Source: Stagnimonas aquatica
Lineage (GTDB): Bacteria > Pseudomonadota > Gammaproteobacteria > Nevskiales > Nevskiaceae
NCBI RefSeq assembly: GCF_003730135.1
Contig: NZ_RJVO01000001.1
Coordinates: forward strand, 310,001 to 374,000
DNA: 64,000 nt
Direction: 5' to 3'
Shown here one piece after another: positions 17,192 through 55,730 of this stretch. Positions within the stretch are counted from its first letter, which is position 1, and each line of letters starts with the position of its first letter. The notes beneath the pieces were generated by a model. It ran no database searches and was not told the origin of the DNA. It saw only the letters and a list, made by a program, of their open reading frames with translations. The position numbers and the translations under genes are program-made.

Positions 17192-17647
17192 CTACAACCA
17201 GATCGCATTCCAGTACGGATAGTCTCCGAGTCGCTGAACCAAGCCCGCCCGCAGCGGATTCATCACGATATAGCGGGCCACCGCCCGCAAGTCCTCTTCA
17301 CGGCGCAGGGCATGATCGTGATAGGCCTCGGACCAAACTGGGCCTAGACGCTGCAAAGCCGCATTGGCGGAGCGCGCACTGAACGATTTAATCCGGCGGA
17401 CGACCTGCGCCAAGGCATCCCGCTCCCCTAGCTCCAGTAACCAGTGCGCGTGATCCGGCATCAGCACCCAGGCCAACAACCGGGCATCGCCGAGGCTGGC
17501 CTGCGACCCGAAGCTGCGGGCTGCGGCACGCGCGGCGGCGTCATCGCGAAACCAGGGCTGCCTTTGCAGCGTGACGGCGGTCAGCAGGTAAACCTGCCCA
17601 GCCTGAGAATGGCGCCCTCGCCGCAGCGCGCGCTGTCCGGATTCCAT
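17192..17647 (-). mobile_element. REP-associated tyrosine transposase (RAYT, TnpA_REP)
   Basis: This 151-residue protein has the Y1/HUH transposase motif in LMPDHAHWLLEL, followed by a helix (VVRRIKSFSA). The catalytic-Tyr region contains AVARYIVMNPLRAGLV, the diagnostic end of RAYTs. Such enzymes cut REP sequences as single strands and are thought to spread them. The ATG at 17647 is used because a longer frame would translate the adjacent REP. REP pairs lie on both sides (17081-17147 and 17662-17728), giving a compact RAYT-REP unit of about 650 bp. The reading frame is intact. Residual fill sequence follows at 17729-17846 with no gene. Confidence 0.9.
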
Positions 17648-17661
17648 CGCCCCATCTCCCG

Positions 17662-17728
17662 GTCGGAGCGGGCTTGCCCGCGACCGATTCTCGGCAGGCC
17701 CTCTGCTCGCGGGCAAGCCCGCTCCGAC
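17662..17728. repeat. REP pair (BIME) upstream of the RAYT gene
   Basis: Inverted 22-bp copies at 17662-17683 and 17707-17728 share the GGAGCGGGC core with the pair at 17081-17147 but have GTCGGAG rather than GTAGGAG at the outer end. The element lies 15 bp before the RAYT start codon. Confidence 0.88.
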
Positions 17729-37904: not shown

Positions 37905-38579
37905 CTAGACCCGCACCTCGGAAAAATCCCGCGCCGACGGGTGTTGCGGGAAGGCCTTGGCCTGGGCGTCGCGCAGCAACTGGGTGGTGGCCAGGCCGGC
38001 CTCGCGCGCGGCGTCCAGCTCCTCGCCGATGTCGGAGAGAAACAGCACTTCGCCAGCCGGCAGGCCAATCTCCGCGACGATGTGCCGGTAGGAGGCCACC
38101 TCCCGCTTGCCGCCGATGCGGGTGTCGAAATAGCCGGAGAACAGCGGGGTGAGATCACCGTAGGCGGTGTGGCCAAAGATCAGTTGCTGCGCCTCCACCG
38201 AACCGGAGGAATAGACGTAAAGCCCCAGCCCCTGCGCATGCCAGCGCCGCAGGTAGTCCGGCGTATCCGGGTAGACATGCCCCTCGAGTTCACCGGCGGC
38301 ATAGCCCTGCGCCCAGATCATGCCCTGCAGAGCCTTGAGCGGCGTTGCCTTGCGGTCCTCGGCGATCCAGCGCTCCAGCACGTCGGCGGCGTCTTCCAGG
38401 GTGAGCTGCCGGCCTTCGGCCTCGGCGACGGCGTGGACCTGCACCGCCACTTCCGGCCGCCGCGCCTGGGCGCGCAGAAAGCTGCGAAGGTGTGCCTTCG
38501 CGTAGGGGAACAGGGTCTGGTGGACGAAGTCGATCGAGGAGGTGGTGCCCTCGATATCAGTCACTATGGCTTTGATCAT
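37905..38579 (-). CDS. mtnC: enolase-phosphatase E1 (methionine salvage)
   Basis: This 224-residue HAD enzyme enolises and dephosphorylates 2,3-diketo-5-methylthiopentyl-1-phosphate. It shows the motif VTDIEGTTSSIDFVH (~7-21), SSGSVEAQQLIF, IGGKREVASY and LFLSDIGEELDAA. The ATG at 38579 gives the family start MIKAIVTDIEG. Its first ten codons use AAA, ATA, ACT and GAT, unlike the GC-rich remainder. Upstream lie a 95-bp palindromic element and a relic of another mtnC start that overlaps mtnD. Confidence 0.93.
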   Translation of the reverse strand: MIKAIVTDIEGTTSSIDFVHQTLFPYAKAHLRSFLRAQARRPEVAVQVHAVAEAEGRQLTLEDAADVLERWIAEDRKATPLKALQGMIWAQGYAAGELEGHVYPDTPDYLRRWHAQGLGLYVYSSGSVEAQQLIFGHTAYGDLTPLFSGYFDTRIGGKREVASYRHIVAEIGLPAGEVLFLSDIGEELDAAREAGLATTQLLRDAQAKAFPQHPSARDFSEVRV

Positions 38580-38589
38580 TGCATTCTCC

Positions 38590-38684
38590 GAGCCGTCCTT
38601 GGCGTTGTGTCCAGCCCGGACATCCATGTCCGGGCGTTCGCCGGGCTGGAGTGCCATTCAAGGCACTCCAGCTTCCTCCGGCTC
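38590..38684. repeat. 95-bp palindromic element between mtnC and mtnD
   Basis: The element has 6-bp terminal inverted repeats (GAGCCG 38590-38595, CGGCTC 38679-38684) and two strong hairpins: 38614-38623 with 38626-38635 (GCCCGGACAT arms) and 38645-38655 with 38662-38672. Its CATCCATG centre recurs in a palindrome at 55077-55098. It resembles a non-autonomous REP- or MITE-like element. Confidence 0.6.
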
Positions 38685-38721
38685 ACCCCTCGATGTCGGT
38701 CAGGATCGCGCGGATCGTCAC
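38683..38721 (-). pseudogene. relic of an mtnC 5' end overlapping mtnD
   Basis: A GTG overlapping the mtnD stop (GTGA) opens 12 codons encoding VTIRAILTDIEG and then TGA. Apart from the first residues this matches the MIKAIVTDIEG start of intact mtnC 140 bp downstream, with different synonymous codons. The last 8 bases before the divergence (ATCGAGGG, 38687-38694) are repeated exactly in intact mtnC (38548-38555). Confidence 0.7.
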
Positions 38722-39272
38722 ACTCCGGCTCCCGCGTATTCGGGGAAGCTCTTGGCGATGGGATCGCCGGTGAAATTGCCGACCCAGCCGTCCGGCCGGG
38801 TGAAGAAGCGGATCGCCTTGAACAGCGGCTTGGGCCCCATGTCGAACCAGTGGGTGGTGTCGGCCGGCACCTCGATCAGATCGCCGGCGGTGCAGAGGAT
38901 CTGATAGACCTTGCCGCCGGTGCGGATGTAGAACACGCCGGCACCGTCAACGAAGAAGCGGATCTCGAAGTCAGCGTGCGTGTGTTCGGCGAGAAACTTG
39001 CCGCGCGCCGCCTGCGCCTGCTCGTGCTCCGGGTGCATGGACACCACGTCCACCGACTGGAAGCCGTACTTGGCATTGAGCGCGGCAACCGAGCCCTCGT
39101 AGGCCTTGAGCACCGTTGCCGGGTCGGCGTCCGGCGCCAGTTGGGCGTCGGCGCGCCAGCGCTCCATCGGCACGCCGACCGCCGCCAGCTCGCGCTGGAT
39201 GGTGGCGAAATCGCTGCTGTGCAGCAGCACCTGGTCGGGACGGTGGTCGGGGGTGATGGTCAACGTGGTCAC
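38718..39272 (-). CDS. mtnD: acireductone dioxygenase
   Basis: This 184-residue cupin enzyme oxidises the acireductone of the methionine salvage pathway with Fe(II) or Ni(II). Metal ligands are visible in EHTHADFEIRFFVDG (His, His, Glu) and THWFDMG (His). The GTG at 39272 overlaps the mtnB stop (GTGA), which supports that start and implies coupling. The length matches the family (~180). Confidence 0.95.
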   Translation of the reverse strand: MTTLTITPDHRPDQVLLHSSDFATIQRELAAVGVPMERWRADAQLAPDADPATVLKAYEGSVAALNAKYGFQSVDVVSMHPEHEQAQAARGKFLAEHTHADFEIRFFVDGAGVFYIRTGGKVYQILCTAGDLIEVPADTTHWFDMGPKPLFKAIRFFTRPDGWVGNFTGDPIAKSFPEYAGAGV

Positions 39273-39880
39273 AGCATGGCCTCCCGCAGATGGCATTCCA
39301 GCATGAATTCGATGGCCTCGACCCGGTGCCGCGCCTGCGCCACTGTGGCGCCCCAGGCGTAGAGGCCGTGGCCGGCGATCAGGTAGGCCGGCGTCGTCGG
39401 CGCCTGCACCATGTGGGCATCGACGACCGCGCTCAAGCGGGCGATGTCCTGGTCGTTGGCGAACACCGGGATCGCGACATTGGACTGCGGATCGGGCGCG
39501 CCGGGTAGCACTTTCAGCAATTCGTAGTTGCTTAGAACGATTTGCGCATACCGCCGCGACAGCACGGTGTTGGCAGTGGAATGCGTGTGCAGCACCGCGC
39601 CGGCGTCGGCGTGACGGCGGTAGATCTGCATGTGCAGCAGGGTCTCGTAACTGGCCTTGCGCCCGGCTTCCAGGGGTTTGCCATCGAGGTCGGCGATCAG
39701 GAAGTCGGCCTCGGCCAGCTCGCCCTTGTGATTGCCGCTGGCGGTAATCAGCACCCGCTCCGAGTCCAGCCGCGCGGAAAAATTGCCGCCCGTGGCCGGC
39801 ACCCAGCCACGGGCATGGAACAGGTTTCCGGCCGCGATCATCTGGCGGGCCTGTTCGGCGATGCGGACGGAGTCGTTCAT
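39269..39880 (-). CDS. mtnB: methylthioribulose-1-phosphate dehydratase
   Basis: This 203-residue class II aldolase-fold enzyme acts in methionine salvage. It shows GWVPATGGNFSARL, TASGNHKGEL, the zinc ligands in VLHTHSTANTVLSR and AGHGLYAWG. First gene of mtnB-mtnD-mtnC. TATCCT lies 9 nt before the ATG at 39880, with no Shine-Dalgarno, consistent with a leaderless mRNA. mtnA (isomerase) and mtnN are not in the window. Confidence 0.94.
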   Translation of the reverse strand: MNDSVRIAEQARQMIAAGNLFHARGWVPATGGNFSARLDSERVLITASGNHKGELAEADFLIADLDGKPLEAGRKASYETLLHMQIYRRHADAGAVLHTHSTANTVLSRRYAQIVLSNYELLKVLPGAPDPQSNVAIPVFANDQDIARLSAVVDAHMVQAPTTPAYLIAGHGLYAWGATVAQARHRVEAIEFMLECHLREAML

Positions 39881-55005: not shown

Positions 55006-55076
55006 TTGGTGTTTCTCAGTTGGTGATTGTTGACCTGCCATCCCTGGCGCAACGGCAGCCCCGTCTGTCTAGCCCT

Positions 55077-55098
55077 CGGCGGCCATCCATGGCCGCCG
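55077..55098. repeat. perfect palindrome before the oxidoreductase gene
   Basis: CGGCGGCCAT (55077-55086) and ATGGCCGCCG (55089-55098) form a 10-bp stem around CC. The CATCCATG centre is shared with the palindromic element at 38614-38635. It may also act as terminator stem for the upstream isomerase-like gene. Confidence 0.6.
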
Positions 55099-55118
55099 GC
55101 AGATCGGGACGAAGCCCT

Positions 55119-55730
55119 TCAAGGCTGTTCGTCTATTCCGATCTGCCCCTTGAGATAGGCTTCCAGCAGATTCAGACGGTCGTTGCCCCAGAACATCTGG
55201 TCATCGACGTAAAAGGTTGGCGCACCAAAGGCCCCGCGCTGGATGGCCGCCTCGGTATTGGCGCGCAAGGCCTCCTTCACCGCCGGCTCCTGGGTGGCGG
55301 CCAGCAGCGCAGCACCGTCGAGGCCGACGCTCTCGGCAATGGCGCTCACCACTTCCGGCTGACTCGGGTCCTGGCCCTCCGCCCAATAGGCCTTGAGCAG
55401 GGCCAGGCTGAACTCCACGCCCTTGCCCTGATCCGCTGCGGCCAGGCAGGCGCGGCTGGCCAGCACACTGTTGAGCGGGAAGAGCTTGGGAAACCGGAAC
55501 GGCACGCCGTAGAACTTGGCCCACATCCGGGCATCGCGGAACAGGTACTTGCCCTTGGCCGGCAGCGCCGCCGGCATCTTGTTGCCGGTGGCCTCGAAGA
55601 CCTTGCCGAGCAGGAAAGGCTTCCAGTGGACCTCGGCGCCGCAGCGCCGGGCCAGGGCTTCGATCTGGGTGGCGGCCAGATAGCTATAGGTGCTGGCCGG
55701 GTCCCAGAAAAATTCGATGGTCTTGCTCAT
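55119..55730 (-). CDS. 2-hydroxychromene-2-carboxylate isomerase family protein (DsbA-like fold)
   Basis: This 203-residue protein has the kappa-GST/HCCA isomerase pattern: IEFFWDPASTYSYLAATQIEALA with the catalytic Ser region, VHWKPFLLGKVF, PLNSVLASRACLAA and RGAFGAPTFYVDDQMFWGNDRL near the C-terminus. It probably binds glutathione and isomerises an aromatic or other electrophile in the cytoplasm. Same strand as the oxidoreductase gene, with a repeat-containing gap. Confidence 0.88.
   Translation of the reverse strand: MSKTIEFFWDPASTYSYLAATQIEALARRCGAEVHWKPFLLGKVFEATGNKMPAALPAKGKYLFRDARMWAKFYGVPFRFPKLFPLNSVLASRACLAAADQGKGVEFSLALLKAYWAEGQDPSQPEVVSAIAESVGLDGAALLAATQEPAVKEALRANTEAAIQRGAFGAPTFYVDDQMFWGNDRLNLLEAYLKGQIGIDEQP

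Follow-up and report, generated by a model that had tools for sequence, protein, structure and literature searches.

Small mobile repeats usually avoid genes or disrupt them. Among the described systems, YPAL (RU-2) of Yersinia is about 168 bp long and is reported to be intergenic there, to target sites near dyad symmetry, and to have target duplications of 3 to 26 bp (PMC2229807), and the Rickettsia palindromic elements and CGTC-tagged repeats are short palindromes that lie inside conserved genes and RNA genes such as those for tmRNA and M1 RNA (PMC2229807, PMC3733652). GTAG-tagged REPs are mobilised by RAYT (PMC3733652), and the Correia/NEMIS, ERIC, and RUP MITEs carry TA ends and a TA duplication together with TIRs that match an insertion sequence (PMC2229807).

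The repeat described here lies between mtnD and mtnC of Stagnimonas aquatica, in a window of 64,000 nucleotides (the whole stretch of DNA analysed, to which all coordinates refer unless otherwise stated). Compared by description rather than by sequence, YPAL is the nearest system in behaviour. Like YPAL, the element is not AT-rich, lacks TA ends, contains internal inverted repeats, encodes no protein of its own, and comes with a target duplication of variable length; unlike YPAL, it measures ≈95 to 110 bp, is associated with duplications of 18 to 60 bp, inserts after GG, and has its hot spots at codon 11 of mtnC and in tRNA D-loops. It resembles the Rickettsia and CGTC repeats in that a core of ≈48 nt is found in frame within genes of prophage-like contigs, the only in-frame cases seen, but it has no CGTC end and does have flank duplication, and in the window mtnC is duplicated rather than read through, with the stub ending in TGA. 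Small GC-rich hairpins, covarying stem families, and a gammaproteobacterial host range recall the GTAG REPs, from which the element differs in lacking the GTAG tetranucleotide at its ends and in not flanking the window's RAYT. As a non-autonomous small mobile repeat it is also like the TA-type MITEs, yet it shows neither TA ends nor TIRs that match an insertion sequence, and GG stands directly before it at 41 of 43 family loci. By established membership, the element is in no named family. Rfam 15 gave no match above the gathering score in the window stretch, a permissive Rfam search of five other element loci gave five scattered matches (E 0.1–1.2), all far below gathering, and the open-access literature contained no description of the element or of tRNA-gene palindromic repeats with long duplications, which is weak evidence of absence.

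All features of the window locus lie on the minus strand, in the order mtnD, a 12-codon stub of mtnC, the hairpin element, and intact mtnC. The acireductone dioxygenase gene mtnD (38718–39296) ends in GGA GTG TGA, and its stop codon (38720–38718) overlaps the relic mtnC start (38683–38721) in a GTGA overlap of the classic type. The codons of this stub, GTG ACG ATC CGC GCG ATC CTG ACC GAC ATC GAG GGG TGA (38721–38683), translate to VTIRAILTDIEG*. The left copy of the duplicated target runs from approximately CGGAG, the ribosome-binding site, to GAGGG (38687–38730) and ends exactly at the 95-bp element (38592–38686), a boundary found in relatives as well. The right copy (38548–38591) comprises a ribosome-binding site GGAG at 38589–38586, 6 nt before the ATG, the ATG itself, and the first mtnC codons to GAGGG; from ATGATCAAAGCCATAGTGACTGATATCGAGGG at 38579 onward, intact mtnC (37905–38579) encodes a 224-aa enolase-phosphatase E1 of the HAD family. 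The sequence-only reading had proposed that a palindromic element disrupted the original mtnC, which was then restored, and our analysis supports this for a once-functional start: the remnant overlapping mtnD is confirmed on the minus strand and agrees with the mtnC starts found in four genus mates, and an intact gene beginning MIKAIVTDIEG does lie beyond the element. The exact stretch that it had noticed in both starts is ATCGAGGG, although weaker similarity extends ≈40 bases further upstream and takes in the CGGAG ribosome-binding site. Its element length of 95 bp also holds, but what it had read as one palindrome consists of two or three hairpins formed from inverted repeats.

The window element is composed of GTGAGCCGG, a stem GCTGGAGTGCC-TTGAAT-GGCACTCCAGC, CCCGGCGAACG, a second stem CCCGGACATGGATGTCCGGG, a spacer, and ..GCCAAGGACGGC, with GTGAGCC and GGACGGC as its ends, and the family consensus is GTGAGCCGG–hairpin–CCCGGCGAACG–hairpin–spacer–GCGCCAnGGAYGGC. 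Its predicted fold has an energy of -59.3 kcal/mol (z = -6.1), which none of 200 shuffles equalled. The ends GTGAGCCGG and CCGGCGAAC are able to pair with a tandem G.A mismatch so as to enclose one hairpin, beyond which come the second hairpin and then ..GCCAAGGACGGC. Used as a query, the window stretch has 12 matches within its own genome, and of 58 family genomes searched with an exact element pattern, 20 contain it, with 45 copies in all (reversed control pattern, 0). Inner stems of at least 6 bp are present in 36 of 37 distinct copies, as against 33% of shuffles, and are built from 29 different arm sequences, so it is the structure and not the sequence that is conserved. A second copy in the window (55037–55148, minus strand) lies downstream of a DsbA-like ORF (..EAYLKGQIGIDEQP*); here the outer arm, CCGATCTGCC, lacks the usual ends and is instead the complement of GGCAGATCGG in the host gene itself, a pattern suggestive of palindrome correction through template switching.

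To see how the junction is arranged elsewhere, we searched 60 relatives, obtaining 30 mtnC loci, and later added further family genomes; mtnC homologues are present in 56 of the 61 genomes searched. Within family f1 (the Solimonas/Hydrocarboniphaga group), stub, element, and start occur, intact or degraded, at the same mtnC codon in 16 of the ≈56 junctions read (L009, which is the window, and L018, L020, L021, L030, L031, L036, L038, L108, L109, L112, L113, L117, L118, L119, and L122), and fragments of the arrangement are left in L032 and L116. Two tandem units are present in L109/L143, and L031 retains traces of two. With stub, element, and start found in this order at one and the same codon in many other genomes, the stub is more than chance. 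Four genus mates (L010–L013) have an empty site, at which mtnD runs straight into one continuous mtnC start, and it is these starts (SIRAIVTDIEG, SIRAVLTDIEG, and the like) that the stub matches at the protein level. When 84,980 species genomes were scanned with a pattern, the mtnC arrangement turned up in Solimonas, Hydrocarboniphaga, and one Nevskiales MAG; three of the ten matches (L139, L141, and L147) were chance occurrences in unrelated sequence. On an mtnC tree from which the start region was left out, presence and absence of the arrangement require at least nine changes, and the carrier L036 has a near-identical sister that lacks the element. GGAYGG lies 44 to 45 nt from the insertion point in mtnC in most carriers, across several genera, and this uniformity is easier to reconcile with a single shared allele, either ancestral or spread horizontally, than with many separate insertions; similarity among the mtnC-inserted elements themselves is ambiguous between single and multiple origins. 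The arrangement at mtnC is not a private accident of this genome, and the same element is found in many bacteria, most often in tRNA genes.

Comparison of each stub with the live start beside it shows 0 of 32 differences in L038 and L108 and 1 of 32 in L119, and the sequences differ between these genomes. Stubs are closer to their own genome's start than to permuted starts (P ≈ 5e-5; the L117 row was off by one base, which counters the effect in absolute distance only). In the window, stub and live start have diverged at 9 of 32 positions, and the stub is no closer to its own start than to those of other genomes; the window is a case of an old insertion, and we infer the duplication there from the relatives. 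Stubs in other genomes have decayed, being degraded in L113 and L118, broken by an in-frame TAG in L117, and without the TGA in L018, L020, and L031. Matching pairs in some carriers and decayed relics in others fit duplication on insertion followed by decay. The middle stub of L109 and its live start differ only at synonymous third positions, which counts against simple decay, as decay alone does not predict such a pattern. In L034, which has no element and a non-overlapping mtnC start, the start is likewise AT-rich, and the AT-rich codons of the live start therefore need no donor; we infer that weak mRNA structure may be selected at an uncoupled start.

Flank duplication was assessed at 43 family loci by alignment anchored at the left boundary of the element, using a cross-locus null at the 99% level. 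At 15 of these loci, a direct duplication of 18 to 60 bp ends exactly at the element's left end, and about two thirds of the family elements have no detectable duplication. Duplicated targets comprise mtnC, a second HAD gene (L045/L004), a nirB-like start (L089), a tRNA (L076), terminators (L133 and L136), and gene 3' ends. Apart from mtnC and mtnD, genes are named here from their translations and not from database calls. Further duplications are found at L125, L126, L128, and L092, the last with a copied stretch of 52 bp, whereas L082 (nirB-like) is a weaker case that rises above a shuffle null in one analysis only. Given duplications at such unrelated loci and stubs identical or nearly identical to the start in relatives, the earlier proposal that the gene was restored by recombination with a divergent start is probably wrong or unneeded. 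A within-genus comparison at one non-mtnC locus, L133, revealed a degraded element and not a clean empty site at the orthologous place in G000. At L004/L045, in the window's own genome (C5:219371-219448), the element stands with a relic start, MSRPYDLLIFDWG* (MSRPYDLLIFDW), before a HAD phosphatase gene and after an rluC-like ORF, and most of the differences between its relic and live start are synonymous.

Beyond the family, the exact element core occurs in 14 of 369 genomes of other gammaproteobacteria, mostly after ..TAGCTCAGYTGG, which is a tRNA from its 5' end as far as the D-loop, with a complete tRNA downstream. The D-loop copies measure 15 to 39 bp, clear duplications being of 25 bp (L215), 28 bp (L167/L223), 34 bp (L214), and ≈38 bp (L225), and at L164 the element lies in the variable loop of a tRNA-Met with a copy of 47 to 48 bp. 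Because the copies of L214 and L223 extend upstream of the tRNA, copying is not restricted to the mature tRNA. Several tRNA-type pattern matches proved to be chance matches in coding sequence. At L229, two nearby tRNA genes each have their own D-loop element, with stems that differ in sequence, and in another gammaproteobacterium (L161, near 1542) an apparently duplicated 3' piece of tmRNA, near an intact ssrA, is followed by a shortened version of the element. A plasmid search returned one partial match (Xanthomonas) and a phage search no match to the element; the 22 matches in viral contigs (L191–L212) are a 48-nt core without flank duplication, or chance. This core, GTGAGCCGG..GGTCCGGGGGACC..CCCGGCGAACG, is found inside genes of Rhodobacterales-like prophage contigs, sometimes in frame, as in L196, which reads ..AELKGEPGQETVRGTVSPANGDPY...

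We consider it probable that insertion of a non-autonomous hairpin element with target duplication, followed by drift, explains the arrangement at mtnC. A small mobile element would have entered mtnC directly behind codon 11 (GACATCGAGG^G), with a GG adjoining it on the 5' side and with ≈30 to 45 bp of the mtnC target duplicated on insertion. The upstream copy would have lost the rest of the gene and become a dead stub, its TGA supplied by the left end of the element, and the downstream copy would hold the ribosome-binding site, the start codon, and the first codons, leaving mtnC whole; duplication at insertion would thus restore the gene at once. Presumably the duplication arose in the act of insertion, by staggered nicking followed by repair and with an enzyme acting in trans, and it implies cuts 20 to 50 bp apart on the two strands or an equivalent copying step. 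Both copies would then have drifted, the stub being free to decay and the live start keeping most of its amino acids while gaining AT-rich synonymous codons, plausibly since it had been uncoupled from mtnD translation. Unequal recombination between the alike copies could add units, as in L109/L143, or remove the element, which would explain both the tandem units (L109 and L163) and the patchy distribution. We give roughly even chances to the wider proposition that the element represents an undescribed gammaproteobacterial hairpin family that favours tRNA D-loops and, in a small number of protein genes, conserved 5' ends, copies 18 to 60 bp of its target, and can thereby enter essential genes that survive the insertion. 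With so long a duplication, an insertion into an essential 5' end or a tRNA would do almost no harm, and this would explain how the repeat persists and why genomes contain stub starts of genes and truncated halves of tRNAs. Both the recurring mtnC site and the tRNA sites are natural experiments on how transposase-less palindromic repeats move.

Alternatively, element and downstream start may have arrived together in one piece, donated by a different Nevskiaceae species through homologous recombination whose crossovers fell within the conserved stretch GAYATCGARGG / GGCACCACCTCCTCGATCGA, so that the recipient's start became the stub and the donor's divergent, AT-rich start took over. Such an import agrees with the live start of the window, which is within 3 of 32 positions of several Solimonas-group starts and 7 to 13 of 32 from those of its genus mates, as well as with the stub, which differs from L010 and L011 by 7 of 32 where the live start differs from the same two by 10 to 13. 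It also agrees with a ribosome-binding-site block resembling that of L117 (GGACGGCTCGGGAGAACCAATG) and with a 44- to 45-nt spacing common to several genera, and it would account for L109. However, the best match of the window element is one from its own genus that lies outside mtnC (L134) and outranks every mtnC element, and the hairpin type of the window element is seen again at L002 and L004 in the same genome; stub and start match each other within many carriers; and an imported allele leaves both the first origin of the duplicated arrangement and the pattern at unrelated loci unexplained. On balance we regard import as rather unlikely, with insertion and target duplication remaining the preferred account.

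Site-specific integration, in which a carried attP consisting of the 5' part of a gene or tRNA would recombine at GG and replace the target's 5' end, is disfavoured and in our judgment quite improbable. The element is indeed flanked by direct repeats, tRNA genes are classic targets, and its GTGAGC completes the D-stem GCTC..GAGC of the left tRNA copy, but what is copied is simply the unique host sequence present at the site, including terminators, gene 3' ends, and the 52 bp of L092, which a carried site could not supply, and the element has no recombinase gene within its ≈95 to 110 bp. Still less credence is due to a functional leader, that is, a short ORF and RNA structure regulating mtnC, despite a window stub that reads to an in-frame TGA, a strongly structured element, and a recurrent position. 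The sequence-only reading had allowed for relatives with the same arrangement and a functional short ORF, and the arrangement does recur; judged from the degraded, nonsense-bearing, and TGA-less stubs of other genomes, however, the relics are not a conserved leader ORF. The whole arrangement is also absent from the genus mates, hairpin sequences vary widely between genomes, and tRNAs and terminators harbour this element too.

When RAYT and reverse transcriptase genes were checked against the carriers, no mobilising enzyme for the element was found. RAYT was rejected as the mobiliser: the window RAYT has GTAG repeats of its own, and RAYT genes do not track the element across the family, with no element beside the RAYT gene at L159 and no Y1_Tnp (RAYT) match in G025, which carries seven elements. 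Reverse transcriptase genes, as would serve a TPRT-like insertion, likewise showed no association with the element; G000 and G025 carry elements and have no RVT_1 match, and the enzyme may since have been lost or be of another type. The window's RAYT-like Y1 transposase (17192–17716, minus strand) has classical GTAGGAGCGGGC- and GTAGGAGCGGGCTTGCCCGC-type repeats on both sides, unrelated to the mtnC element. In G147 (L170, L179, L183, L185, and L187–L190), at least 16 near-identical copies of the element are nested in a larger repeat with flanks ..GGCGTTGGCGGCAGGG, a good place to seek current mobility. At the window locus, an open frame begins at an ATG within the element and continues into mtnC (37905–38657, minus strand; 250 aa, MALQPGERPDMDVRAG..MIKAIVTDIEG), and as a practical warning, automatic annotation may assign mtnC a false N terminus here.
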